A DNA stretch of 64,000 nt from Candidatus Scalindua sp. (lineage in GTDB: Bacteria; Planctomycetota; Brocadiia; Brocadiales; Scalinduaceae). Shown here piece after piece: positions 5,750-45,476 of this stretch. The stretch spans positions 62,001-126,000 of the forward strand of contig JASMMK010000019.1 in NCBI GenBank assembly GCA_030748215.1. Reading direction: 5' to 3'. Both the position numbers and the translations under genes were made by a program. The notes below the pieces were generated by a model that was given only the letters and a program-made list of their open reading frames with translations, did no database searches and had not been told where the DNA came from. The first letter of the stretch is position 1; each line of letters opens with the position of its first letter.

Positions 5750-7540
5750 TTATGTAATCTCGCTTTGACTAACGCTTAGGGAAGATTCAGCAGTTTCATC
5801 TGAACTTTGATCTAAATATAATAAACCATCTGACATTGAAAAGTTGTAAGGAAATATTGGAAGTCTATTGTCAATTTCTGACCTTACATGCTCGTAAACT
5901 TCTCCGGACTCTTCAGGCGTCATCCCCCTGTCTGTCTCGTAAAAATAACCCAGACTCAGGTCGTCCTGTTTAGGATGCCCTATTTTGGTCAACCCATATT
6001 TGCCTGGATCACGCAATATAGGAGCATGTTTTTCAAGTTCAAAAAGACAAGCAAGACAAGATGCACCTTTTGACTTCAAGAATTTCTCATTGGATATTAC
6101 AAAATCAAGTGTTTCAAGCGCTTCTTCTCTGGTCTCTGACGGAAAACCTACTATTACATACATATGAATTGCAACACCTGTTTCATCACAATAATTAATA
6201 ATGTTCTTCGTTATTTCTGTTTCAATCCCTTTATCCATTAATGAAAGAACTCTTTTGTTAGAAGACTCAAGACCAAATACCATCTTAAGGCACCCTGCTT
6301 CACGTGCTTTTGCTAATATATCTTTTGTAAGCCCCTTGTCAAATCTTACTCCTGCCATCCATTTAATATCGTTACCCTTCTCTATTAATTTCGAGCTCAA
6401 GCTATCCAACTGCTTAACAGGCATACACTCATCACTGAAAAACATGTACTCAGCGCCATACTTTTCTTTTAATTTATCAATATCTTCAAGCACCAGATCC
6501 AGGTTCCTTAATCTGAATTTCAGATTATCAACGTGCAGGTTACAGAAAGTACACTTTCTCCAATAGCAACCCCTGGAACCCTGCAAGGGCAAAACCCTCT
6601 TTGGAGATAGATACCGATCCAGAGGAAAACCATCATAATCTGGAGTAGGCAGTGAATTTATATCTTCAATGTGAAACGGCTCATTAACGCAAATTCTGTC
6701 GCCTTCTTTATATACTAAATTAGGTACCTTATCTAAACCTCTCTTATCTTCAATATGTTCAATAAGCCCCAAAAGCGCATGTTCGCCCTCAAATACGATA
6801 AAACTATCTACAAGATCAAAAACCAGGTGATTTTGCTGAAGATTATCAATCAACTTTGTGAATACACTACCACCCATTGTTATATGAAGGTCGCTATTCT
6901 TTTTCTTTAACAGCCTGGCCAGGGTAAACGCAGGCATTACCTGTGAAGTTGCTGTTACAGATATTCCAACGAGATCAGGATCTTCTTTCATTATTGAATC
7001 AACAATGTGATCATTAAAAAGGTCATGATACGGGTTCTCATGTTCACAACTAACAGCCCTTAATACATCTTCTGACGAATAGACACTGTATCTCATGGAA
7101 TTATCGGCAATTGATATCTCAGATGGATAGTACAGCATTCCAAATGCCTGCAGCCACCTGTCAATTACCTTCCAACTCTCTACGTAATCTTCAATTTTGT
7201 AAAAACTCCGAGATTTCAATGTAGACTTTGCCCATTCCACATTCTGTACCATGTTCTCTCTTTCAATTACTTCTCTAGCCCAATTAAGTCTTGAATATAC
7301 CTCTTCAGGGTTCTCTTCATGACTGACAGACCCAGTTACCCCATTCAGTCTCTCATCTATTGTAGCAAGGGTTTTATTAACTTTTTCAGAAGAGAGCAAT
7401 ATATCCATTGTTTCAATATTCAAATCACGTATTGAAACATTCTCTACTCCCTTACTCTTTAAAAAGCCCTGCAGTGAAGGAAGACTTAAGAACGGCTGAG
7501 ATGGCATCCAGGAAGGTGGAAAGACCAATGAAACTTGCAA
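5750..7540 (-). CDS. B12-binding-type radical SAM protein
   Basis: A 596-residue radical SAM enzyme with an N-terminal cobalamin-binding-like Rossmann region (about residues 180-260, with VGISVTATSQ and TMGGSVFT). The SAM cluster motif is GCYWRKCTFC, with C325, C330 and C333. The spacing C-x4-C-x2-C is that of the GCYWGKC subgroup rather than the classic C-x3-C-x2-C. The substrate is unknown. It is the first gene of the run leading to ferredoxin, Mrp and moaAC, so the ferredoxin may be its electron donor (inference). Confidence 0.85.
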   Translation of the reverse strand: MQVSLVFPPSWMPSQPFLSLPSLQGFLKSKGVENVSIRDLNIETMDILLSSEKVNKTLATIDERLNGVTGSVSHEENPEEVYSRLNWAREVIERENMVQNVEWAKSTLKSRSFYKIEDYVESWKVIDRWLQAFGMLYYPSEISIADNSMRYSVYSSEDVLRAVSCEHENPYHDLFNDHIVDSIMKEDPDLVGISVTATSQVMPAFTLARLLKKKNSDLHITMGGSVFTKLIDNLQQNHLVFDLVDSFIVFEGEHALLGLIEHIEDKRGLDKVPNLVYKEGDRICVNEPFHIEDINSLPTPDYDGFPLDRYLSPKRVLPLQGSRGCYWRKCTFCNLHVDNLKFRLRNLDLVLEDIDKLKEKYGAEYMFFSDECMPVKQLDSLSSKLIEKGNDIKWMAGVRFDKGLTKDILAKAREAGCLKMVFGLESSNKRVLSLMDKGIETEITKNIINYCDETGVAIHMYVIVGFPSETREEALETLDFVISNEKFLKSKGASCLACLFELEKHAPILRDPGKYGLTKIGHPKQDDLSLGYFYETDRGMTPEESGEVYEHVRSEIDNRLPIFPYNFSMSDGLLYLDQSSDETAESSLSVSQSEIT

Positions 7541-7755: not shown

Positions 7756-10700
7756 TTATTCAACTGTCGTAGTACCACCACCAAGATAAAGTTTCATAAA
7801 TTTACTCTCATTTGCAGGAGTGAAACCTGTTCTTGCCGGTTCCCATACTCCTTTTGCACCTAAACCACCATCTTCAGCTTTAGTAATCCTGACCAATGTT
7901 TCTTTAGGAACAGTATTAACAACATGGTTGTCAGCCTCACCACCATGCATGAATCCCATGAAAACTTTCTTCTTATGGAAGAGGGTATCTGTCTGGTGCA
8001 TCGGCATTAACCACGATCTGGTTATCGACTGCTGAGAACCATATCTGAAGTTCGCAAGATAACCATCTGAAGACATTGCCATACCATCTTTCCTTGTTTC
8101 ATGTGCCTTAACACTCTTTTCTGTAGCAACAAATGTTGAATGTTTCATCATTGTCGTATGATAAGGATATGCAGGATTGTACTTTGCCCTTACCATAAGT
8201 CTCGCGACCTTATAAAATGGGTCATTCGGCTTCCAACCCCTGTATGGTCTGTCAACAGGATTTGAATCAACGTAAATATAATCACCATCATTGATAGCAA
8301 GATCTTTAGCCGCAGCCGGATTTATGTGCAACTGATGTTCTCCTACACCCGGACTTCGTTTGTCCATTCTATATGGATCACCAAAGTTATTATTCCAGAT
8401 AAGGTTCCAGTCCACAGTACTCCATTGCGAATGAACCCTGTGTCTTGTTTTAGGTGTTACGCAATAGAATCTGTAACCTTTTTCCCACAGAGGATTTTTC
8501 GTTTTCTTAACTTCGCTCCATGGCATCTTTATATTCCTTACATGACGTTCATCCGCACCCATGTGATTCTTCGGAATACCATAATCTTCCGGCCTGATAT
8601 AAGGGTTTGTACTGACGATTACGTTAGGAAGATAAGGAGTTGCCTCAACAGCTTCCCTGTGACATATAAAGTTTTCACCGTATTCAATCGCTTCCGGTAT
8701 GTCACAATACGAATGAAGCCTTCCATCGTCTGTATGGAATGGACGATCATATACCACCTGTTCATACATTGGAGTCCTTGGATAAGTACCAAAATTTAAA
8801 AGAGCACCACCCGGAACACCGCCATATTTACCGGCGATCATATCGTTAACGTTATATCCCCTGGTAGGAACACTACCATCAAAGAGCCTCTGCATATAGA
8901 CTTCAGGTCTCTCTTCCAGAGCAAATTTCCAGTAATCCGCAAACCTTCTATCACCAAGTAGCTCACCCATTCTTTTGGAAACCAGTGCCGGTACCATAAC
9001 GTCATCCTTAGTATCATGGAGTGGTCTTATTCCACCTTTCCATACCTGAAGGAATGGGTTAGAGCATGAGCAAGTAACTTCGTAGTGCTCAAATTCCATC
9101 CATGAATTTACCGGGAATCCAACGTCGGCATATTGTATGGATGATGTCATCATAATGTCGCTGGATATAATAAGGTCAATCCTCGGATTAACATTCTTAA
9201 ACATCTCATATACCCATTTAGCATTATTTATCAGGTTCACGTTGTTAAACCACAACACCTTGGTAGGAGTGTTGTAGTGTGTTTCACCGGTAAAACTCTT
9301 TCTACCAAACTTAGGAGTATTAACAATTAGTGGTGTATCGCCATGATTCCAGTATGCTACCTCTTCGTCCATAGCATAACTGTGAGCATGTATATCCTTA
9401 CCATCCGCATAAGGATCAAGATTCATCTCAAATGGATCTTCAGCAATAATTCCTTTAAATCCAGGACCTGACCATTTTGAACCCTGGAAGTTACCGGCCT
9501 TGTAATTACCAGCCCACGTATGTGATCCTGAACCATGATATCCAATATTACCCGTCAACATTAATGGCAAGTACGTCGCTCTGTTATGTAGTGTCGCATG
9601 GAAGTAATGATTGATACCTTCACCATAATGTATAGCAGCAGGTTTTATAGTTGCACAGTCCTTAGCCAATCTTTCAATAAGATGGGCAGGTGATCCTGTA
9701 ATATCTGCTGTAGTCTTAACATCAAAATCCCTGAGATGAATCTTGTAGAGATCGAACAGCGTCATAACCTCAACATCTTTACCATCTACAGTCTTAACCG
9801 TGAATGTTCCTTCCAGCGATGGATCTATTCCCTTGGCAACCATCTTCTTTCCAACATCTTCTCTTGTTATTGCCTTAAAATCCTTTGCCTTTGCATCATA
9901 CACAACAAAATCACCTAACTGCTTCCTCTGTTCCTTCTTCAAGCCCTGAACGGTGTGACTATAATCCAACTCAGGCTGCTTGTAGTCTTTGATAATTTCA
10001 TGAGGTTGCAATCTCTTTAATGTATCCGTTCTGACAAGAAGCGGGAAGTCAGTGAACTTCTTAACAAAATCCACGTCATACCATTTGTTATCCATTATGA
10101 TCTTCGTCATAGTAAGGAATATGGTAGTATCTGAGATACCGGTTCTACAAGGAATCCAGTAATCAGCCTTTGTCGCAGAAGGGCTATACTCAGGTGTTAT
10201 AACTACCAGTTTTCCTCCACGCTCAATAACCTCTGTCAGCCAGTGTGCTTCAGGCATTTTGTTCTCAATAAGATTTTTTCCAACCTGTATAACCAGCTTT
10301 GAGTATCTGAGATCTGCAAAGTCAACGTCAGATGCCTGTAAACCATGAACAAAAGGATGTCCCGGCGCCTGGTCACCATGCCATGTGTAGTTTGAGAACC
10401 TTCTACCACCCTGAGCCTTATCGGCACCTACACCTCTTACATTAGCATCAAGCAATGCCAGCGTGTTGGAGAATCGGTACATACCCATATATTTTCCAAT
10501 AACTCCAAGCAGACCCATACCACCACGATTTTTAAAGCACCTTGTACCGGCACCATTCCAGTGTGTAAGAGTTTCAGGCGCATACTTATCTCTTTCAAGC
10601 AGCCTCTTCTTTCCCTCTTCACCACTATAAGCCTTGGCGATAGCGATCATTCCTTTGGCAACGTAATCAATTATATCATCCCAAGACATCTTTAACTGCT

Positions 10701-11205
10701 CATCAGTACCTCTGGATGTAAATTTATATTTCTCTCTGGCACTCCAATCTAATTCAGGAAAACCGTCATCTGCCCACTGTTTCCAACCTTTCCTTAGCAA
10801 TGGGAATCTTAGCCTATGCGGACCATAAACCCTTCTGAAAAAGGTAAATCCTTTCAAACACATTCTTGGGTTCCATGACTGTTGAGGTGTTCTTCCCTCT
10901 ATATCACCGTAATTCTGATGTTCATAGTCCTGTTCTACTCTTATTACAACTTCGTTCCGTACAAACGCTCTTACTCGACACTGATGAGTATCATTCGGCG
11001 AGCAACAGAAAGCAAATGAACGGTCATATTTATACTGATTCCTGTATACGTCCTCCCAGTTTCTATCAGGATATGAATCGAGTGGATTATCCACCTCTAC
11101 TGCCGGTTTCAATGACGTTAAGGCCAGCGCATTTCTCATAGGTATTGATACAGCCGCTGTTACCCCTCCCGCAACCTTCATAAACGTCCTTCGCGTAAGC
11201 TTCAT
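7756..11205 (-). CDS. nxrA: Nitrite oxidoreductase alpha subunit (Mo-bisPGD, Tat-exported)
   Basis: Catalytic subunit of nitrite oxidoreductase, oxidising nitrite to nitrate and releasing low-potential electrons. It begins with a twin-arginine signal (LTRRTFMK then a hydrophobic stretch ending near ALA). The N-terminal cluster motif is C-x3-D-x3-C-x39-C (C68, D72, C76, C116). An Asp replaces the usual second ligand, as in several type II DMSO-reductase enzymes. The likely Mo-ligand Asp is D278 in NYTWHGDQAPGHP, matching the NarG WYADLPPASP region. I start at the ATG at 11205, six bases after GGAGG. The ATG at 11211 directly abuts that ribosome site. Length 1149 residues. It is the last gene of the operon. 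Confidence 0.96.
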   Translation of the reverse strand: MKLTRRTFMKVAGGVTAAVSIPMRNALALTSLKPAVEVDNPLDSYPDRNWEDVYRNQYKYDRSFAFCCSPNDTHQCRVRAFVRNEVVIRVEQDYEHQNYGDIEGRTPQQSWNPRMCLKGFTFFRRVYGPHRLRFPLLRKGWKQWADDGFPELDWSAREKYKFTSRGTDEQLKMSWDDIIDYVAKGMIAIAKAYSGEEGKKRLLERDKYAPETLTHWNGAGTRCFKNRGGMGLLGVIGKYMGMYRFSNTLALLDANVRGVGADKAQGGRRFSNYTWHGDQAPGHPFVHGLQASDVDFADLRYSKLVIQVGKNLIENKMPEAHWLTEVIERGGKLVVITPEYSPSATKADYWIPCRTGISDTTIFLTMTKIIMDNKWYDVDFVKKFTDFPLLVRTDTLKRLQPHEIIKDYKQPELDYSHTVQGLKKEQRKQLGDFVVYDAKAKDFKAITREDVGKKMVAKGIDPSLEGTFTVKTVDGKDVEVMTLFDLYKIHLRDFDVKTTADITGSPAHLIERLAKDCATIKPAAIHYGEGINHYFHATLHNRATYLPLMLTGNIGYHGSGSHTWAGNYKAGNFQGSKWSGPGFKGIIAEDPFEMNLDPYADGKDIHAHSYAMDEEVAYWNHGDTPLIVNTPKFGRKSFTGETHYNTPTKVLWFNNVNLINNAKWVYEMFKNVNPRIDLIISSDIMMTSSIQYADVGFPVNSWMEFEHYEVTCSCSNPFLQVWKGGIRPLHDTKDDVMVPALVSKRMGELLGDRRFADYWKFALEERPEVYMQRLFDGSVPTRGYNVNDMIAGKYGGVPGGALLNFGTYPRTPMYEQVVYDRPFHTDDGRLHSYCDIPEAIEYGENFICHREAVEATPYLPNVIVSTNPYIRPEDYGIPKNHMGADERHVRNIKMPWSEVKKTKNPLWEKGYRFYCVTPKTRHRVHSQWSTVDWNLIWNNNFGDPYRMDKRSPGVGEHQLHINPAAAKDLAINDGDYIYVDSNPVDRPYRGWKPNDPFYKVARLMVRAKYNPAYPYHTTMMKHSTFVATEKSVKAHETRKDGMAMSSDGYLANFRYGSQQSITRSWLMPMHQTDTLFHKKKVFMGFMHGGEADNHVVNTVPKETLVRITKAEDGGLGAKGVWEPARTGFTPANESKFMKLYLGGGTTTVE

Positions 11206-11257
11206 ATACATCCTCCTATATCTCTTATATAAAAAATACTTTTAATCGCACTTAAAA

Positions 11258-12241
11258 CTACCACTTTCCTGCTTGAATCTTATAATATTCCGCACATCTT
11301 TCGCACACACCATCCAATGGTTTCCAATCGGGAAACTCTTCATTTATTATTTTGGCAATGTCCTCATCGTTTGCCACTTCCTCTATCCAATCAAATGACG
11401 GAAATCCACAAAGCGGACACGTAGTTCCGGGAACAGGACCAAGGGCCTTTGATTCTTCTACCAGTTCTTCAACAGTACGGCTCCCTGCAGCTAATGCAAG
11501 GACCTTATTTGTGTCTTTAGACAATTCAACCAGCCTGGGATGCGTAATAGTTTCATCTGCATTCCACATTTTATCAAATATCAGTTCCCTTGTCTCTTCT
11601 GGGATTTTACTGAAGAAAGAATCAAATTCTTTTCTTCTCTCTTCTTTTGATGCTGTAGTCTCCAGTCCTTTGTTAGTTAAACGTCCATCAATAGAAATAT
11701 CCCAGAAAAGCCTATATCTGTCTGTGATTATTCGTTCTTCCATTGGAGAGGTCGCAAACTCCTCATGTACATTATATTCAAACGCACTATTGATCATGTC
11801 AGAAACGTGCATAAGTTCATGCCTGATAACTCTGCTTATTTCATGACTACCTTCAATGAAAAGTTCAGGGTACAATCTTACAATGACCTTAGTACCCTCA
11901 TCTACAAGATTAGACCCTTCGTTCTTCCTTGTCGTAGCCCTCCTGACATGCACCTCCTTAATCTCTGCCTCAATATCAGGATACTCATCAAAGGCATCTC
12001 TCAGGAAGGTACCATAACCTAATCGATTAAAAAACTCCTCATCAAGTTCCCTGAACCTTCTTGGTCTCCTCTCCTCCTCCATCTCATAGATTGAGTCTCT
12101 TCTCTCATGATACTCATTGTATAAGGCAGAGTCTCCGGATGTTTCCTGACGTACCAAACCCTTACATACTATATCATCAACCAACTGATGATCGTACTTA
12201 ATTTCAAGAGTTTCAGCTTGTTCTGCTTGTAGTTCAGTCAT
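11258..12241 (-). CDS. nxr accessory protein: HELMH metallopeptidase-like domain plus Cys zinc-ribbon-like tail
   Basis: A 327-residue protein with a zincin-type HExxH motif (HELMH, residues 141-145) in a helix (SRVIRHELMHVSD). It ends in a CPLC-x34-CxxC module (C275, C278, C313, C316). No signal peptide is seen, so it is predicted cytoplasmic. I choose the ATG at 12241: it follows GAGGAG and overlaps the end of the TorD-like gene, whereas the longer open frame extends into that gene. The same Cys module with identical spacing occurs in the exported protein at 13109-13702. Its place between the chaperone gene and nxrA suggests a role in NXR assembly or maturation. Whether it is an active protease is unknown. 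Confidence 0.8.
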   Translation of the reverse strand: MTELQAEQAETLEIKYDHQLVDDIVCKGLVRQETSGDSALYNEYHERRDSIYEMEEERRPRRFRELDEEFFNRLGYGTFLRDAFDEYPDIEAEIKEVHVRRATTRKNEGSNLVDEGTKVIVRLYPELFIEGSHEISRVIRHELMHVSDMINSAFEYNVHEEFATSPMEERIITDRYRLFWDISIDGRLTNKGLETTASKEERRKEFDSFFSKIPEETRELIFDKMWNADETITHPRLVELSKDTNKVLALAAGSRTVEELVEESKALGPVPGTTCPLCGFPSFDWIEEVANDEDIAKIINEEFPDWKPLDGVCERCAEYYKIQAGKW

Positions 12242-13007
12242 ACTTCTCCTCGTCCATACAAGAGTCACATGCACTGGCGCTTTTACCCTCAAGCCGCTGT
12301 AGATAATCTGGTTCGTTACCCATATACTCATCTATCTCTTCAGCGTCAACAGACAACTTGACCATTTCGAGGTGAATAAAAAGACTTGCCAGAGTTGCTG
12401 CCTGACGATAGAAGTCTTCAGGCGTTTTCTTAATAACAGACGTTGTAAACGCTTTAATCCACCTGCCAATATGAGCATACAAAAACTTTTTCTTGCCGGA
12501 AAGACAGGATTCCTGTTGTTCTTTGCTGTGATTTTCTATTGAGTATGCCAGTTTGTAAGTCAGGAAATGCAGGAATTCCAATTCAACAGCTACATGGTCC
12601 CATCTTGTTGTAGTCATATCTTCTTCCATCTGAATGCCATATGCCTTATACATACCAGATATATCGGCAAGATCCTGAGTCTGCTGCCATATTTGCGAAC
12701 CGCTATAATACATCTCGTAAGGAGGACAATCCATAGCTACAGTTGCGGCTCCGAAAGTAGCACGATATCCCCACTCTAAATTCTCAGCGTCATTACCATC
12801 CAACGCTTTCTGCAACAGTTCAAATGGCTCCAACATCTCATTATTACCGCTAGTCAATATGCAACTTTTAACCTCTGCCACATACTCTTCATTATTTAGC
12901 ATCTCCAAAGCCTTTTTATTCGGCTCAAGAAGGCATGTAGAAAGGAACTGATAGATTTGACTTGCAGCTAGTAAATCTTCAACACTTTCATTAATTTCAA
13001 TTGCCAT
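12234..13007 (-). CDS. TorD/NarJ-family chaperone for NxrA
   Basis: A 257-residue all-helical protein of the TorD/DmsD/NarJ redox-enzyme maturation family, which holds Mo-enzyme apoproteins for cofactor insertion and checks them before Tat export. Family features are the acidic-aromatic loop (AMDCPPYEMYYSGSQIW) and the DHVAVELEFLHFLTYKL helix. The C-terminus has a CDSC pair close to the stop. GAGG precedes the ATG. The stop codon overlaps the start of the HELMH gene, indicating coupling. NxrA is the obvious client, as the only Tat-signal Mo-enzyme encoded nearby. Confidence 0.9.
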   Translation of the reverse strand: MAIEINESVEDLLAASQIYQFLSTCLLEPNKKALEMLNNEEYVAEVKSCILTSGNNEMLEPFELLQKALDGNDAENLEWGYRATFGAATVAMDCPPYEMYYSGSQIWQQTQDLADISGMYKAYGIQMEEDMTTTRWDHVAVELEFLHFLTYKLAYSIENHSKEQQESCLSGKKKFLYAHIGRWIKAFTTSVIKKTPEDFYRQAATLASLFIHLEMVKLSVDAEEIDEYMGNEPDYLQRLEGKSASACDSCMDEEKYD

Positions 13008-13108: not shown

Positions 13109-13702
13109 TTACTTTACGTTTTTAAAGTAGTTAAGAATATTTGGTGACTTCATATATCCGATAACATATTCATCTGTAGTAGACAAAACCGGCTTACCAT
13201 CAAAAAGTTTTCCAGACCTGACCTCATAACACTCAAAACAGTTACGGCAAACACCGTCTTCTTTGCTCCAACCAGGATAGTCATTTTTCATGAATGACAC
13301 TGTATCACTGTCTAAATCACTATCACTTAGCCAGAAATAGGTAGCGTCCCCACACAAAGGACACGGACTATGAGCTTTTGACCCTGCATCTTTTGCAGGT
13401 AACAGGTGGTGGTGTCCGGAAGTGTCTTTGACGTCTGTAATTCTCTTCTGCCAGCTATGATCTCCCTCTATCCAGTAAATATCAGTATGGCTCGGCTTAT
13501 CACCTTTCGGCTCTGCTGAGTCGTGGAACAGATGCCACTCAATATTACCATTATGCCTCTGATGGTATGTTGGATCGTCTGTCGACTTAAATGCCTCAAA
13601 GCTTTCAGTCCACTCCTCAGCACCTACGTGTTTAATCCCAGTAAAACCAATACCCATAAAGGCAAATATACTTAAAATGCACAGTAATCTCGGATATTTC
13701 AT
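13109..13702 (-). CDS. Exported nxr-cluster protein with CPLC-x34-CxxC module
   Basis: A 197-residue protein with a Sec signal peptide (hydrophobic residues 5-22, cleavage near VGA-EE). The mature part contains a His-rich stretch (TSGHHHLLP) and then CPLCG (C114, C117) and CRNCFEC (C152, C155, plus C158). The segment between, with DYPGW and DGVC, closely matches the tail of the HELMH protein. A strong GGGAGG site precedes the start. It lies between nxrB and the chaperone gene, so it is probably a metal- or redox-active helper of NXR on the outer face of the membrane. I recognise no named family. Confidence 0.8.
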   Translation of the reverse strand: MKYPRLLCILSIFAFMGIGFTGIKHVGAEEWTESFEAFKSTDDPTYHQRHNGNIEWHLFHDSAEPKGDKPSHTDIYWIEGDHSWQKRITDVKDTSGHHHLLPAKDAGSKAHSPCPLCGDATYFWLSDSDLDSDTVSFMKNDYPGWSKEDGVCRNCFECYEVRSGKLFDGKPVLSTTDEYVIGYMKSPNILNYFKNVK

Positions 13703-13753: not shown

Positions 13754-15022
13754 TTAGTACGTGACCATTCGCTTTTCGTCGCTTTCCCATGTTGGCTCTT
13801 CAACTTTAATCCTGGCCAATTCGGTACCATCTGAAGCATAGCCAATAGCAGTGTCGTTATACACCTCGACCTTTTTCCCCATTACCTCAGATTCATAAAT
13901 CTTCGGTCCATCTTCCACTTCGAATCTGGCTATCATGGTTTGAGTTGACCTGAAAAGCGCCAAAACAGCCATCAGAGTTCTGGATGGCGCAGCGTATTTA
14001 TCAAGCGCCTCGTCTACTCCCGGGCCAAACATCTGCCTTAAATAAGCTCTAGGAGCCCATCTTGGCGGTATGTAATATATATTAGGCTCTGTACCAAACT
14101 GCGGGTAAAGAGGTAATGCTACTTTATGTATGTGAACCAGCCAGTCCATCGGATTCTTAGGATCAGGTTTTTTATAATCACCTGATAAAAGACCGTTCAA
14201 TCTGATCTTACCCACACAGGCGGCCATACAACGAGCCTCCATCCTCCTGCCCTTTGTAATAGGATCCTTACCCTCTACCCTCGGATAACAAGCGATACAT
14301 TTTTCAGACATTCTTGTTTCACCACGATACATAGGCTTCTTGTAAGGACACTGCTCAACACACTTTCTATACCCTCTGCAACGTTTCTGATCTATCAAGA
14401 CGATACCGTCTTCTTTACGTTTATATATGGCTTTTCTCGGACAAGCAGCCAGACATGCCGGATAAGTACAGTGGTTACAAACTCTCTGGAGATAGAAGAA
14501 CCATCTCTTATGTTCAGGAAGTTCTGAAGACTCTTTGTCCTTACTTGATCCTAATTCATAATTTGTCTTTTCACTTGCAGCAGTATCTTCGTATATGTTT
14601 GGGAACCTCCACTCTTTGTCATCTGGTATATAACCAACTGCTACCTGATTAAGCCCTTTATTTTGAGCCAATTCAAAGATAGTATCACCGTTATAAAGTC
14701 CGTAAGGAGCCGTAGTTTCATTCTTATCTTCCGCACCTGTAAACCACTCCATAGGGTTATTACCGTTATCCCACAACATCTGTAATATTTTCTGGTCCCA
14801 ATGCTGAGGATATCCACCATAAGGTTTCGTCTCGACATTATTCCACCACATATACTCCTGTCCTTTACTGTATGTCCATGTACTTTTATGTGCCATTGTA
14901 CAGGTCTGACAAGCAATACACCTGTTTATATTAAAGACTGCAGTAAATTGATGTTCCGGCCTTGACTCGAAGTATGGATACTCCATTGTTCTCCCAAGGT
15001 GCCAGTTGTGAACAAGCGTCAT
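13754..15022 (-). CDS. nxrB: Nitrite oxidoreductase beta subunit (four Fe-S clusters)
   Basis: Electron-transfer subunit that passes electrons from NxrA to NxrC. Four cysteine groups are seen: CIACQTCTMAH (from C35), CNHCTYPACLAACP, CRGYRKCVEQCP (the 3Fe-4S-type motif, aromatic in place of a Cys) and CIAC...CMAAC. In the first group the position of the fourth Cys of NarH is a His (H45). No signal peptide is present, in keeping with Tat co-export on the NxrA signal. AAGGAGG precedes the ATG. Its 422 residues fit the anammox/DMSO-reductase type II beta subunits. Confidence 0.95.
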   Translation of the reverse strand: MTLVHNWHLGRTMEYPYFESRPEHQFTAVFNINRCIACQTCTMAHKSTWTYSKGQEYMWWNNVETKPYGGYPQHWDQKILQMLWDNGNNPMEWFTGAEDKNETTAPYGLYNGDTIFELAQNKGLNQVAVGYIPDDKEWRFPNIYEDTAASEKTNYELGSSKDKESSELPEHKRWFFYLQRVCNHCTYPACLAACPRKAIYKRKEDGIVLIDQKRCRGYRKCVEQCPYKKPMYRGETRMSEKCIACYPRVEGKDPITKGRRMEARCMAACVGKIRLNGLLSGDYKKPDPKNPMDWLVHIHKVALPLYPQFGTEPNIYYIPPRWAPRAYLRQMFGPGVDEALDKYAAPSRTLMAVLALFRSTQTMIARFEVEDGPKIYESEVMGKKVEVYNDTAIGYASDGTELARIKVEEPTWESDEKRMVTY

Positions 15023-15078: not shown

Positions 15079-16020
15079 TTATCTTGAGGACTCTAATGTT
15101 ATAGGTCTCCATCTAATACTGACCGATTTTAGGCCATTTCTATCACCATCTTCTCCATTCCAGACTGCCATATTGAAGAATGTTGATTTGCCCGGTGTAA
15201 ACTGAACATCATTTTCGTCCTCTGTTTTCAACGGTCTGTAAACGATAACATCCCACTGCCCATCACTCCAGGCACCTGCACCATTAACATCCTGATGTGT
15301 TTGCGCAGTAAGCGTACCAAACCCCACAGCATTCAGATCTTCTACAGAGCGACCCCTAGGAAGCGAAAGCAAAGATCCGGCAGATATACCACCAGCCAAA
15401 AGGTCAACGCTATCGTGTACTGTTTTATTAAAAATGCAAGGATGAGGATCAGAATCAAAGTCATGAAACATGTCAGGATACTGATCTTCCATGTGTTCAT
15501 AGCCACCGTCTGCTTGTAGATCACGTTCCCAGTCGGCTTTCCAATGCCAGATATTTACGGTTTTACCCCTATCACCCATTCTAGGGCTAAAAGGAGTTTC
15601 CGGAGATATTTTTACAATACCAAGAGGAAACATCAGGCCAACCGCGTCTCTAAACTGTTCATGCTTAATAGCTCTATCATTCTTAGTTGCATCACTCCAA
15701 CGTATTCCAAGAAAAATATCTTTTCCATTATGTACACCTCTGATCTCGACTTCTGGCACAGAGCCACCACCATTTGGAAAAGACCTGTCCTGTATCTGCA
15801 AATTAACCGTGTATGATGACGCATTAGCAAGAGCATCAGCAGCTCCTTCTAAATCGGTATCTGCAAATTTGACGGTCAGCCCTTCTTCAGTGGGTATGTT
15901 CTCTTCCACTGTTGCTTCCTGCTCAAGGCTTTGTGAGAAACCCTCACCACTATATATAAAGAACATCGCGACAAAAGCGCTTCCCAGGAAAATAGACTTT
16001 CGTATAAGGCCTCTCAACAT
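15079..16020 (-). CDS. nxrC: Nitrite oxidoreductase gamma subunit (exported heme-binding-type)
   Basis: Third NXR subunit, related to the heme b gamma subunits of ethylbenzene dehydrogenase and chlorate reductase. It receives electrons from NxrB. A Sec signal peptide is clear (LIRKSIFLGSAFVAMFFIYSG). The body has the family pattern EIRGVHNGKDIFLGIRWSDAT followed by a C-terminal FNMAVWNGEDGDR segment. Heme ligands cannot be assigned by eye. I start at the ATG at 16020, eight bases after GGAGG. The GTG five codons upstream lies in that ribosome site. It is the first gene of the operon, with a leader of about 400 nt from the predicted promoter. Confidence 0.92.
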   Translation of the reverse strand: MLRGLIRKSIFLGSAFVAMFFIYSGEGFSQSLEQEATVEENIPTEEGLTVKFADTDLEGAADALANASSYTVNLQIQDRSFPNGGGSVPEVEIRGVHNGKDIFLGIRWSDATKNDRAIKHEQFRDAVGLMFPLGIVKISPETPFSPRMGDRGKTVNIWHWKADWERDLQADGGYEHMEDQYPDMFHDFDSDPHPCIFNKTVHDSVDLLAGGISAGSLLSLPRGRSVEDLNAVGFGTLTAQTHQDVNGAGAWSDGQWDVIVYRPLKTEDENDVQFTPGKSTFFNMAVWNGEDGDRNGLKSVSIRWRPITLESSR

Positions 16021-16434
16021 GACTATAACCTCCACTAAAATTGTAAAATGAATTTCAAAGATGTGCTTGAGTAAAAACCAAGTAGATCATTATAGGTTAA
16101 ATCAAAAAAAACTCAAATTAAAAATGATAAAAACCTGAAATTAACACAAAACACAATGGTAAACTAACGACTTTATGAAAGTACAAGATTCTCTAGACAA
16201 TTGTATTTGCAAGGTGTTTGCAAATATTAATAAAAGATGGCTAGTTCCGTGATATTTCTCAGGAAACGGATATGCAAGCTATGATGCGTGTTGGAATGAT
16301 CTTTCGAGATATTTATTCGTGTCCTATACCACTCAACACAAAACACTTAAAAGTTCACACCTGCCATTTCTTCCCCCTCCGGAAGAAAGTTATGCAGCCA
16401 TCTATTTTGCAATGAACATATGAAGATAATCGTA

Positions 16435-16450
16435 CGCAATACATGTGCCA
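16435..16450 (-). promoter_or_regulatory. Sigma-54 (-24/-12) promoter of the nxr operon
   Basis: On the minus strand the sequence is TGGCACATGTATTGCG. The GG and GC pairs are exactly 10 bp apart, and TGGCAC and TTGC both match the consensus. It is the only such match in the 16036-16679 gap. The predicted start site is near 16424, giving a leader of about 400 nt before nxrC in which I see no gene. A sigma-54 activator gene lies immediately upstream. Confidence 0.75.
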
Positions 16451-16570
16451 CAGAAAATCATTCAAAAAAAACACAAACATATGTCACATAACACGTACGA
16501 TTGCATATATATATGACAATAAACAGAAAGTGCCATCTCCTAAACGTAACCTTTCAGCTATCCACACTTT

Positions 16571-16583
16571 TGACATTATGTCA
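16571..16583. promoter_or_regulatory. Palindromic operator 1 upstream of the nxr promoter
   Basis: TGACATTATGTCA is a perfect inverted repeat around one central base. It lies about 120-135 bp upstream of the -24 box, the usual distance for an enhancer site of an NtrC-type activator. Its centre is 40 bp from that of the second copy. Confidence 0.6.
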
Positions 16584-16610
16584 TATTTCATTTATACAGA
16601 ATAAAACCGG

Positions 16611-16623
16611 AGACATAATGTCA
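16611..16623. promoter_or_regulatory. Palindromic operator 2 upstream of the nxr promoter
   Basis: AGACATAATGTCA contains the perfect dyad GACAT-A-ATGTC, the same motif as operator 1 in the opposite orientation. The centre-to-centre distance is 40 bp, close to four helical turns, as for paired enhancer sites. A weaker ACATATGT site is at about 16478-16485. Confidence 0.6.
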
Positions 16624-16679
16624 AATACAGCAAACACATAACCACTGACAGATAAAAGACTTAGTAGCTATTAAAAAAA

Positions 16680-18188
16680 TCAACTGTTTATGTTATCATT
16701 AGCCTCTTCTTCCTCTTCCCTCCTCCTCGCCTCTTCCTTCCTCATCTCCTCTCTTCTCATCTCCTTTTCCCTCCTCCTCTCCTCTTCATTTAATACTTCC
16801 TTACTCAACTCTTCCCGCTTTTCCTTCTCTTCCAGAGAATTCATTTTTCTATATATGGTCCTGGGAGTAATACCAAGTAGCCTTGCAGTAACTTCCTTAT
16901 CTCCTTTCGACCTCTTCAACGTTTCAATAATTATTTTTTTCTCAATCTCACGTAATGGCATACCAAATGGTATAGCAAATTTTCTATCCTCAACCTTTCC
17001 TCCTAAAATATTATCAGGAAGATCCTTCTGCGTAATAACCCTGCCTTGAGTCAAAACGACGGCCCTCTCAACCACATTTTTTATTTCACGCACATTGCCA
17101 GGCCATTGATAACTGATCATAGCATCTTGTGCCTCCTCAGAGATTCCATCGATTTCCTTATTATTTTGTTTCTGATAAATTTTAAGAAAATGATTTATCA
17201 ACAGAGGAATATCTTCTGCTCTCTCTCTTAGTGGAGGAATGTCTATGGTAATCACATTCAACCTGTAAAACAGATCTTCTCTGAATTTTTTCTGTTTTAT
17301 TGCATCTGCAAGATTTACGTTAGTTGCAGAAATTATTCGTACGTTACTCTTTATAACACGTGTTCCCCCCAAACGTTCAAATTCACCCTCCTGTAATACC
17401 CGAAGTAGTTTCACCTGAATGGATGGAGTTATTTCTCCTATTTCATCAAGAAACAATGTTCCATTATGAGCCAACTCAAAACGCCCTTCTTTCTGGCTAA
17501 CGGCTCCCGTAAAAGCCCCCTTTTCATAACCAAAGAGTTCAGATTCGAGAAGCGTGTCCGGCAAAGCAGCACAACTCACTTTTAAAAATGGCTTATCCAT
17601 CCTCGCTCCTATATTATGGATAAGTGATGCTATTGCCTCTTTCCCTGTACCACTCTCTCCTTGAATTAATACTGACGCCTGGCTTGGCGCAACTTGCTCC
17701 GCTAATTTTATAACGTCACACATTACATCACTTTGCCCGATAATGTCTGTATGTTTATCGTGTTCAGAATGCGCAAGTTGCTCATGTAAATATTTGTTCT
17801 CTACAACGAGAGCCTGTTTCTCAACCGCCTTTTTGATCATGTTGGTAATCACAATCTTCTTGAAAGGTTTAGTAATAAAGTCATAGGCACCGTCCTTCAT
17901 TGCACCAACAGCCTTCTCGATTGTTCCGTGAGCGGTAATTAATACGACCTCCACTTCCGGTTTTATTAACTTTGAAGCCTTAAGCAGTCGAAGACCATCC
18001 ATTTTATGCATTTTCAAATCTGAAAGCATTACATTGATCTTTTTTTCACGTAAAATATCCAGTGCGCTTTCACCACTTTCTGCTAAAAAGACTTCATATC
18101 CTTCTCTAGAAAGCATCCTTGATAGTGCAATCCTTATACTTTCCTGATCATCAACAATCAAAACTGTTTGTTTTGTTAAATTATTCAA
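16680..18188 (-). CDS. NtrC-family sigma-54-dependent response regulator
   Basis: A receiver domain (phospho-acceptor D57, conserved K107), then an AAA+ activator domain with Walker A GESGTGKE (177-184) and the sigma-54 contact motif GAFTGA (224-229). A Fis-type helix-turn-helix follows near 432-448. The 502-residue chain ends in an unusual tail of about 50 residues, almost all Glu, Arg and Lys (451-502). The TTG start overlaps the 3' end of the kinase gene and follows AAAGGA, indicating translational coupling. It is the obvious candidate activator of the sigma-54 promoter before nxrC. Confidence 0.93.
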   Translation of the reverse strand: MNNLTKQTVLIVDDQESIRIALSRMLSREGYEVFLAESGESALDILREKKINVMLSDLKMHKMDGLRLLKASKLIKPEVEVVLITAHGTIEKAVGAMKDGAYDFITKPFKKIVITNMIKKAVEKQALVVENKYLHEQLAHSEHDKHTDIIGQSDVMCDVIKLAEQVAPSQASVLIQGESGTGKEAIASLIHNIGARMDKPFLKVSCAALPDTLLESELFGYEKGAFTGAVSQKEGRFELAHNGTLFLDEIGEITPSIQVKLLRVLQEGEFERLGGTRVIKSNVRIISATNVNLADAIKQKKFREDLFYRLNVITIDIPPLRERAEDIPLLINHFLKIYQKQNNKEIDGISEEAQDAMISYQWPGNVREIKNVVERAVVLTQGRVITQKDLPDNILGGKVEDRKFAIPFGMPLREIEKKIIIETLKRSKGDKEVTARLLGITPRTIYRKMNSLEEKEKREELSKEVLNEEERRREKEMRREEMRKEEARRREEEEEANDNINS

Positions 18189-19860
18189 TTATATCCTTTC
18201 CACAAGTTTCAACGGGAAAACTAACAACCATAGTCGTACCCTTGTCAATTGTACTCTTACAAATAATCTCACCATGATGCCCTTCTACCGTCTTCATCGT
18301 CAAGGCAAGGCCCAAACCGGTACCGTTAACTTTTGCGCTATAAAACGGATCAAAAACCCGTTGTACATCCTCTTTACTGATACCTGATCCGGTATCAGTA
18401 ATAGAAACTTCAATACAATCATCCTTAAGCCTTGTAGATATGCTCAATTTACCACCTTCAGACATAGCTTCAAAAGAGTTCTTCAGTATATTGAGAAATG
18501 CCTGTTTTATCTGATTTACATCGAGCAATATTAGTGGCAGATCAGGAGCATAATTTTCTTTCAGAGTAATACCTCTCTTCAATCTCTCCTTATTAAAGAA
18601 TTTTGAAAGCTCAATTAAAATATTATTGACAGAAACCGGTTTTGTATCCAACCTGGGAAATCTGGCAAACCGCAGATACTCATCACTCATTTCAGTTAAA
18701 GTATCTACCTCACTCAGAATAGATTGAATTAGATTCTCCGCTTCACTCTTTTCCTCGCCATTCTCCTTGCTGATTTCATCATACAATAACTCTGTATTCA
18801 AACTAATTGAACTTAATGGATTTCTTATTTCATGTGCAACCTTTGCAGACATTTCTCCTATAGTTGCTAGACGCTCCGAATGCAACAACTGCTGTTCCAG
18901 TTTTTTCCTTTCTGTAATATCATGACTTGTAATAACAGTACCCCAATATTTACCAGTTGGATCAAATACTGCTGAATATGTGTTGTAAAGAAAGCCACCT
19001 TCTGTCTTTACTTCCTGATGTTGTGATGTTTCTATCCCTTTCTTGAAACGTTCAGTTATCTTTGATGCTACCCCTCCAACATAAGGAATCTGATCGTCTT
19101 TTACTGATTTATTTATTATTTCTTCACTTTTTACTTTCCATGTTTTTTCGATTTCCCTGTTGCACATTGTTACCTTATCACTGGGGTCTATAAAAATAAC
19201 ACCCTCTGCCATATTTTCTAATGTTGATCTTACCTCAAACAACACATCACCTCTGCTTTTTCTCAATCTGTCCATTAACGAAGTAACAAAATACACCGAA
19301 ATAAAGATTGTGCTGGCGAGAGCGAAGAAAACACACAGTATGTAAACTTCAGAATGCCAAAGATCGTCACTGTATCTAAAAGCAGAAAATATTTGTAAAG
19401 GCTGATGAGGTATTACAGAATAATACTCCAGAACTAAAAGCAATGCAAATAAACTTGTAGCAAACAACGCCTGCATATAACTATATTTTTTTTCTAAAAA
19501 TATTCCACCAATTATGGCATGAAATAGAAAGTAAATAATAAAGGGGTTTTCAATACCTCCCGCAAAGTATATCAGGCATACAAGAAAAAAATGATCTGTC
19601 ATGATCTGTATTCCGGCATGCAGCTGTACAGATCGAAATGTTTTTTTGTGGAGAGTATCTGTAATGGAGTAATAACACACATTGATAAATCCAATAATCA
19701 TACCAATGCCGTATAGTGGAATAACCTGCTTCACAACCATAAAAACACTACTGAAAACATATGTAGTAATAAACAGACCTGATATAGCAACCCAACGCAG
19801 AAGAATCAACCAGCGTATACGTTCTACTAATTCTGTTTTCTTTAAATTATCCGTAAACAC
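18181..19860 (-). CDS. Membrane sensor histidine kinase
   Basis: About 559 residues: roughly six membrane segments in the first 200 residues with only short loops, a PAS domain (about 205-320, LENMAEGVIFIDPSDKVTMCN), a HisKA H-box (VAHEIRNPLSS) and a HATPase domain ending with DTGSGIS and GTGLGLAL. Without a large periplasmic domain the signal is likely sensed in the membrane or by the PAS domain. The start is a GTG preceded by a distant GGAG. It overlaps the activator gene by 8 nt, so the two form a two-component pair. The 377 bases upstream to 20237 hold nothing I can identify. Confidence 0.93.
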   Translation of the reverse strand: MFTDNLKKTELVERIRWLILLRWVAISGLFITTYVFSSVFMVVKQVIPLYGIGMIIGFINVCYYSITDTLHKKTFRSVQLHAGIQIMTDHFFLVCLIYFAGGIENPFIIYFLFHAIIGGIFLEKKYSYMQALFATSLFALLLVLEYYSVIPHQPLQIFSAFRYSDDLWHSEVYILCVFFALASTIFISVYFVTSLMDRLRKSRGDVLFEVRSTLENMAEGVIFIDPSDKVTMCNREIEKTWKVKSEEIINKSVKDDQIPYVGGVASKITERFKKGIETSQHQEVKTEGGFLYNTYSAVFDPTGKYWGTVITSHDITERKKLEQQLLHSERLATIGEMSAKVAHEIRNPLSSISLNTELLYDEISKENGEEKSEAENLIQSILSEVDTLTEMSDEYLRFARFPRLDTKPVSVNNILIELSKFFNKERLKRGITLKENYAPDLPLILLDVNQIKQAFLNILKNSFEAMSEGGKLSISTRLKDDCIEVSITDTGSGISKEDVQRVFDPFYSAKVNGTGLGLALTMKTVEGHHGEIICKSTIDKGTTMVVSFPVETCGKDIIE

Positions 19861-39201: not shown

Positions 39202-39606
39202 TTATTTCCAATAGTACTTTTCGAGTGATTGTTCTACCGCGTACTTAATTATCTCTTTTTTTATCGGCTTCGCTATTAAAGTGTATGCATCTGCCTCAAT
39301 AGCCTCAAATTTTAAATCTTTAGAGGTATCCGCAGATACAAAAATACAGGGAATCTGGATATTCTTCTCTTCCTTGATAAATTCAAACGTTTCAAAACCA
39401 CTAAAGTCCGGCATGTGCACATCCATAATCAACACATGCAACAATTCATGCTTTGCGATTTCAACGGCCTCCCTGCCACAACTAGCCAGGTATGTTGTAT
39501 AACCTTCTGGTTCGAATATATCGTTCAGGCTGGAACGACAATTATCATCATCGTCGGTTATTAAGATCTTGTAATCAGCCTTATCACGTTTTAACAGTGT
39601 CATCAT
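39202..39606 (-). CDS. Stand-alone receiver-domain response regulator
   Basis: A 134-residue single-receiver protein. Acidic pocket DDDD near residue 18, phospho-acceptor Asp in LIMDVHMPDFSG and Lys in IAKPIKK. No output domain. The start is one of two adjacent ATGs without a good ribosome site. A sigma-54 promoter match lies 40 bp upstream and paired palindromes lie farther up. It points toward groES but is separated from it by 41 bp; read-through is possible. Confidence 0.85.
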   Translation of the reverse strand: MMTLLKRDKADYKILITDDDDNCRSSLNDIFEPEGYTTYLASCGREAVEIAKHELLHVLIMDVHMPDFSGFETFEFIKEEKNIQIPCIFVSADTSKDLKFEAIEADAYTLIAKPIKKEIIKYAVEQSLEKYYWK

Positions 39607-39646: not shown

Positions 39647-39661
39647 GCAAACAAAATGCCA
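39647..39661 (-). promoter_or_regulatory. Sigma-54 promoter of the receiver gene
   Basis: On the minus strand TGGCATTTTGTTTGC, with GG and GC exactly 10 bp apart and TTGC at -12. The predicted start site is about 30 nt before the ATG of the receiver gene. Confidence 0.65.
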
Positions 39662-44970: not shown

Positions 44971-44986
44971 TGGCACCTTAATTGCT
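44971..44986 (+). promoter_or_regulatory. Sigma-54 promoter of the PilZ gene
   Basis: TGGCACCTTAATTGCT matches the -24/-12 consensus fully, with GG and GC 10 bp apart. The predicted start is about 60 nt before the ATG at 45057. Upstream (44840-44885) the arms ATTTTGGG and CCCAAAAT form an inverted repeat that might be an activator site. The rest of 44682-44970 shows no gene. Confidence 0.7.
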
Positions 44987-45056: not shown

Positions 45057-45476
45057 ATGATGAATCGAAACCCAAATCAAATAAATGATCGAATGCACAA
45101 TGATGTAGATAGAAGAAAACATAAAAGAGTTGAGAAACCGATTATCATAAGATTTCGAATCAGACCCGAGAACAAGCAGGAAATGGCTTCTTCAGAGTGG
45201 GACATGGTGGGTGTAAATGATCTGGGTGTAGGAGGTCTGTTTTTTAACTCCAGCAACAATATACAGTGCGGCACTGTTCTGGAACTAAAGATAGGATTTT
45301 CCACATCTTCATCACCTGTTATGTGTACCGGAATGGTAACCCGCATAAAAAAACAACAAGACACATCTATTTTTGGTATTGCTGCAGCCTTTATGAATAT
45401 TGCAGAGAGTGAAAAAGAGCTAATCAACAGATTTGTCAATCAAACCATACCCTCACATCTAGCGCTAACGTGTTAA
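45057..45476 (+). CDS. PilZ-domain c-di-GMP receptor-like protein
   Basis: A 139-residue single PilZ domain. The RxxxR switch is in DRRKHKRVEKPIIIRF (residues 18-33), and the second motif is in VNDLGVGGLFFNSS. The usual D/NxSxxG has Gly for Ser here, so c-di-GMP affinity is uncertain. AAAGGAAG precedes the start. It is a single-gene unit behind a sigma-54 promoter. Confidence 0.8.
   Translation: MMNRNPNQINDRMHNDVDRRKHKRVEKPIIIRFRIRPENKQEMASSEWDMVGVNDLGVGGLFFNSSNNIQCGTVLELKIGFSTSSSPVMCTGMVTRIKKQQDTSIFGIAAAFMNIAESEKELINRFVNQTIPSHLALTC

Follow-up and report, generated by a model that had tools for sequence, protein, structure and literature searches.

A candidate sigma-54 nitrite regulon associated with a two-component system beside the nxr operon in Scalindua-type anammox bacteria

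Anammox bacteria are responsible for much marine nitrogen loss. In a 64-kb stretch of DNA from one of them (hereafter the window), genes for a histidine kinase and an NtrC-type activator lie immediately upstream of the nxr operon. A first-pass annotation of the window proposed that the operon is under sigma-54 control by this adjacent system, rather than being constitutive. The source genome, that of a Scalindua-type anammox bacterium, spans 2.4 Mb in 66 contigs, and its closest named relatives on the basis of nxrC are Candidatus Scalindua assemblies. The comparison set comprised 17 genomes of the Scalindua-type family and 45 other genomes of the order (44 outside genomes for the composite pattern described below), and genome-wide site counts were obtained by pattern searches of the contigs.

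The nxr operon and its two predicted promoters

The operon consists of six co-directional genes, which in order encode NxrC and NxrB, a protein of 197 aa, a NarJ-like chaperone, a protein of 357 aa and NxrA; the features of the region are as follows.

16450..16436, minus strand: TGGCACATGTATTGC, predicted -24/-12 (sigma-54) promoter between the regulator gene and nxrC
15079-16020, minus strand: nxrC, haem b subunit of the type II DMSO reductase family (called GTG start at 16035, revised)
13754-15022, minus strand: nxrB, Fe-S subunit, about 70% identical to Brocadia/Jettenia relatives
13109-13702, minus strand: exported 197-aa protein with a CPLCG...C..C zinc-ribbon-like end, no Pfam match
12234-13007, minus strand: NarJ/TorD-like chaperone, by domain match
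11258-12241, minus strand: accessory protein, called at 357 aa, no Pfam match
7756-11211, minus strand: nxrA, molybdopterin catalytic subunit, 66-69% identical to Brocadia/Jettenia loci
about 7711-7681, minus strand: AAAGCCCCTGACTTATGTCAGGGGCTTTTTT, intrinsic terminator with a 14-bp hairpin and U-tract, 3' of nxrA

The annotated arrangement of six co-directional genes closed by one strong terminator is borne out by the gene order and by the hairpin, which was found by folding and was not listed by a simple terminator scan. The order of nxrA, nxrB, nxrC and the chaperone gene resembles that of other anammox genera (Brocadia/Jettenia loci). Because the SD sequence GGAGG falls inside the called GTG start, the start of nxrC was moved to ATG 16020, which is the probable one, and the 357-aa gene probably starts at MTEL near 12241, which would abolish a 98-bp overlap. 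The uncharacterised 197-aa and 357-aa proteins have related C-terminal CPLCG...DGVCxxC sequences, with a signal peptide in one only. Beyond nxrA, a gene at 5750-7540 (minus strand) encodes a B12-binding radical-SAM protein, RiPP-type C-methyltransferase-like, which is nxr-linked in most family loci reaching that far; modification of an NXR subunit or its cofactor is a possible role for it. The gene is followed, down to 2637, by Fe-S, Mrp-like, MoaA and MoaC genes.

The -24/-12 element that had been reported upstream of nxrC is present as an exact TGGCAC-N5-TTGC with GG-N10-GC spacing, and a transcript start near 16424 is predicted from it. One exact match by itself is little above chance, as the pattern occurs five times in the 2.4-Mb genome against three times for its reversed control. 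Its fate in relatives with the same gene order, where loss of the site would by the first-pass annotation have refuted the proposal, was examined in 12 assembled nxrC upstream regions, namely those of the window, of nine named genomes chosen for a retained regulator-nxrC order and a sequenced gap (loci L015-L020 and L022-L024), and of genomes G005 and G001. The result favours the proposal: the site is kept in all 12, exactly in 11 of them (G005 included) and as the one-T variant TGGCATATTAATTGC in G001. It lies 212 to 864 bp 5' of nxrC in the nine named genomes and 193 to 864 bp across the whole set. Sequence constancy at a shifting distance from nxrC is the pattern that a promoter should give, and that general conservation of the spacer should not. 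The single rpoN gene of the genome lies elsewhere (one Sigma54_DBD match, in a 486-aa frame). Within the leader of about 400 nt that would follow the predicted sigma-54 start (16150-16410, minus strand), the short stretches CTTCCGGAGGGG...AAG and ATCATTCCAAC are kept in close relatives; an Rfam search of the nxr leader gave no family above threshold.

Another promoter candidate lies closer to the operon.

16116..16089, minus strand: predicted sigma-70-type promoter, TTGAGT-N16-TATAAT, about 60 bp before nxrC

Eight of the 12 genomes share this sequence and its spacer at a near-constant position (-57 to -60, or -87), and the element is absent from the nxrC regions of G001, G006, G014 and G015. 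Its fixed distance from nxrC and its rank among the best promoter-like matches of the region would suit an operon expressed mainly, and constitutively, from this proximal promoter, to which the sigma-54 promoter adds little. We consider this unlikely, though the most serious of the alternatives, because chance alone yields promoter-like matches about as often as they are seen in the region (25 in shuffles against 22 found), and the four genomes missing the proximal promoter have the sigma-54 site, which is the more widely conserved of the two. Basal sigma-70-type expression combined with inducible sigma-54 expression of nxr is more likely. The conserved proximal promoter makes "sigma-54 rather than constitutive" too strong a statement. 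A transcript start far from 16424 with a good -10 box was to count against the earlier proposal, and half of that combination, the good -10 box, is found here.

Paired dyads and the adjacent regulator

Upstream of the -24/-12 site lie the elements on which the assignment of an activator depends.

16572-16582, strand not applicable: GACATTATGTC, UAS1, promoter-proximal dyad, candidate activator site
16612-16622, strand not applicable: GACATAATGTC, UAS2, promoter-distal dyad, candidate activator site, centred 40 bp from UAS1
16680-18188, minus strand: NtrC-type response regulator, proposed activator, with Response_reg (REC), Sigma54_activat AAA+ containing GAFTGA, AAA lid and Fis-type HTH
18181-19860, minus strand: sensor histidine kinase with a PilS-like six-helix membrane domain containing GGIENPF, and PAS, HisKA and HATPase domains

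No GACANNNTGTC match other than these two dyads occurs in the window, and the pair stands 121 bp upstream of the -24 element. Pairs of such dyads (consensus TGACAtnaTGTCA over the sites), with centres 40-42 bp or four helical turns apart, were found 63 times in 16 of the 17 family genomes, including five in the source genome, and in none of the 45 other genomes of the order. The gap was near 30 in every case in a search that allowed any gap from 15 to 45. The reversed control of the pair gave one site (both strands) across the 17 family genomes and none in the wider-order search. Downstream of all 63 pairs, at 100-134 bp and on exactly one strand, lies a GG-N10-GC site (called with up to two mismatches), against a background of 0.73% per strand at random positions in the same DNA. 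Once aligned, the 63 promoters read TGG(C/T)A(C/T)N5TTGC, in which the A and TTGC are invariant, more than the search demanded. The composite pattern of one dyad plus a -24/-12 element gave 69 matches in the family, none when reversed and two in the 44 outside genomes (G018 and G030), which were put down to chance. Because a large share of the 63 sites are orthologs, the independent cases amount to about ten target groups; the association of the candidate activator sites with the predicted promoters is decisive nonetheless.

The domains of the regulator and the kinase agree with the earlier description of an NtrC-type activator with an intact GAFTGA motif coupled to a histidine kinase. The kinase gene lies directly upstream of the regulator gene, the two overlap, and they are kept together in relatives. 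Orthologs of the regulator with at least 77% identity are confined to the family, in 15 of the 17 genomes, with G015 contributing a C-terminal fragment that lies at the end of a contig, while the best matches outside the family reach at most 48% identity, except for one 61% protein in another family. The scores of the regulator fall below the NCBIfam cut-offs for the AtoC, ZraR and NtrC equivalogs (482 of 714, 410 of 760 and 420 of 559 bits, respectively). The recognition helix GITPRTIYRK is nearly invariant across the orthologs and different in paralogs.

Adjacency and co-distribution strongly support this regulator as the one that would act on the dyads. The link is drawn from synteny and shared distribution in a genome that encodes several other NtrC-type activators, with at least nine sigma-54 activator domains, and the regulon could be real while another of these proteins activates it, the neighbouring system controlling something else and its place beside nxr being incidental. 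The location of the kinase-regulator pair away from nxr in G001 and G002, which belong to one genus, also fits such an arrangement. In G001 the dyads and promoter still precede nxrC despite the separate kinase-regulator locus; G002 keeps the regulator and has no strict dyad pair and no close nxrC. We regard a different activator as improbable, since the regulator and the dyads have the same family-limited distribution, the regulator lies directly 5' of the nxr dyads in 11 genomes, and in G016 a dyad and an exact -24/-12 site come immediately after it. Sigma-54 control by the adjacent system, as first proposed, is thus strongly supported by the conserved site, the dyads, their single-strand association and spacing, and the co-distribution of the regulator.

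The near-equal numbers of exact and reversed matches in the genome would be compatible with a functionless chance match to the -24/-12 consensus, a reading that is refuted by the conservation of the site at varying distance in 12 genomes and by the one-strand dyad association in 63 of 63 cases, and to which we give practically no weight. Cross-species conservation and the paired dyads confirm that the predicted promoter at nxrC is beyond chance.

Candidate targets and a model of the regulon

The candidate targets in the source genome, named by Pfam or read from sequence, are as follows.

Window: nxr operon, preceded by a dyad pair and -24/-12 site
C54:56296: nirS (Cytochrom_D1), then radical-SAM genes
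C54:64287: Rieske protein and cytochrome b
C41:31760: 139-aa coiled-coil protein and small lipoprotein
C13:409, at a contig edge: site that has counterparts in relatives upstream of genes for a formate/nitrite transporter and an HPP protein
C17:40605: weaker single-dyad site preceding a TPR protein

Further targets in relatives include SLAC1, YceI, a 950-aa multihaem cytochrome c and a second Rieske/cytochrome b set. The common thread of these predicted targets is nitrite uptake, reduction and oxidation, together with the quinone-cytochrome electron path. The first-pass annotation had predicted that nitrite oxidation is switched on by a specific signal through sigma-54. The predicted switch is not confined to nxr, as the same UAS pair and promoter also precede nirS, the transporters and the Rieske/cytochrome b genes. 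In G016 a regulator-promoter-yceI arrangement is found at a contig edge, and in G015 a YceI-family gene lies between the sigma-54 promoter and nxrC (loci L024 / L155 and L202).

Two other sites in the window stand without dyads. The second exact TGGCAC-N5-TTGC, at 44971-44985 (plus strand), lies 72 bp 5' of a PilZ-domain gene (45057-45476) and is perhaps the target of another activator. TGGCATTTTGTTTGC, at 39647-39661 (minus strand), lies 41 bp 5' of a stand-alone receiver-domain gene (39202-39606) and is a plausible additional sigma-54 site.

The sites, with their spacing, strand, conservation and targets, and the co-distribution of the regulator are established by sequence comparison, and the model built on them, which we hold to be very probable, is that the Scalindua family has its own dedicated two-component system, encoded beside nxr, which drives a nitrite regulon through the dyads and sigma-54. 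The phosphorylated regulator would bind the two dyads about 110-120 bp upstream of the -24/-12 promoter and open the sigma-54 RNA polymerase there, so that transcription would start at that promoter. The regulon would comprise nxr, nirS with the radical-SAM genes, the formate/nitrite transporter with HPP, and Rieske/cytochrome b, with YceI, cytochrome c and SLAC1 added in some species, and the proximal sigma-70-type promoter would supply basal nxr transcription in most species.

The signal and comparison with known systems

The membrane domain of the kinase matches the PilS-like PF25323 at threshold, and GGxxNPF occurs in all 13 full-length family orthologs checked. This motif is tied to quinone binding in RegB (PMC8191878). 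Kinases of the RegB/PrrB type share with the window kinase the six-helix membrane domain and GGxxNPF, but the latter has a PAS domain and an NtrC-type partner and no cysteine near the H-box. As the redox-box cysteine described for RegB (PMC8191878) has no counterpart between the H-box and about residue 460, and as the partner is an NtrC-type sigma-54 activator and not of the RegA type, the window kinase was ruled out as a RegB. Quinone or redox sensing by this kinase is a lead only.

Functional evidence on the signal comes from Kuenenia stuttgartiensis. When nitrite was replaced by NO, transcripts of nxrA, nxrB and nxrC fell 9.3, 4.9 and 8.2 fold, that of nirS 52 fold and that of the main nitrite transporter 36 fold, decreases that were reported at the transcript level and not at the protein level (PMC6423088). 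The joint fall of nxr, nirS and transporter makes a nitrite stimulon plausible, and since such genes are also the candidate targets here, the supply of nitrite suggests itself as the most natural signal. We give an even chance to the system responding to nitrite supply or to quinone-pool redox state. As the ortholog-level regulator is confined, among the order genomes, to the Scalindua family, the comparison with Kuenenia is one of function only. The nxr, nirS and nitrite transporter clusters change together there as they would here, but no regulator is named in the portions of that study drawn on (PMC6423088), and the order genomes outside the family have neither the dyad pairs nor a regulator ortholog.

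That all anammox bacteria share this type of sigma-54 control was ruled out, because the regulator, dyads and exact site are all missing from loci of the Brocadia, Jettenia and Kuenenia types. The nitrite response of Kuenenia and Brocadia must therefore use another regulator, and marine-type and Brocadia/Kuenenia-type anammox bacteria would have to regulate their nitrite branches with different regulators. Brocadia-type loci L034, L038, L039, L042, L045 and L049 carry a GGAACG-N4-TTTGC-like sequence about 97-117 bp before nxrC, and this may represent a separate promoter conserved in the Brocadia group.

On balance we lean towards a broader reading, in which the family-specific sigma-54 system would be a nitrite master switch that reads quinone redox or nitrite and jointly sets uptake, NirS, NXR and Rieske/cytochrome b. 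If true, core anammox metabolism would thereby gain its first defined regulon. Neither nxr nor nirS is mentioned in a CRP/FNR study carried out on an anammox bioreactor (PMC8510549), and the literature covered, which was open-access with subscription papers largely outside it, contained no sigma-54 regulon for anammox nitrite genes and no regulator of the core nitrite enzymes. The finding supplies a regulator, a probable binding motif, promoters and a testable target list, and suggests a way of balancing the nitrite-reducing branch against the nitrite-oxidising one.

The closest precedent at an nxr locus is Nitrospira moscoviensis, in which control of nxrAB by nearby sigma-54-dependent regulators has been proposed (PMC6606698). 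Both systems have sigma-54-class regulators encoded beside the nxr genes, but the Nitrospira loci have no nxrC with nxrAB and hold several regulators, including NifA-like ones, and the parts of that report used here describe no promoter, UAS or wider regulon. With the NtrC, ZraR and AtoC systems, the window system shares the REC-AAA+(GAFTGA)-Fis architecture, an overlapping kinase gene, upstream dyads, -24/-12 promoters and several operons per regulon; it differs in targeting anammox nitrite enzymes and in having its own dyad, TGACAN3TGTCA, in a fixed 40-42 bp pair. The mechanism thus appears to be of a known kind, while the regulon, the motif and the link to anammox nitrite metabolism appear to be new.
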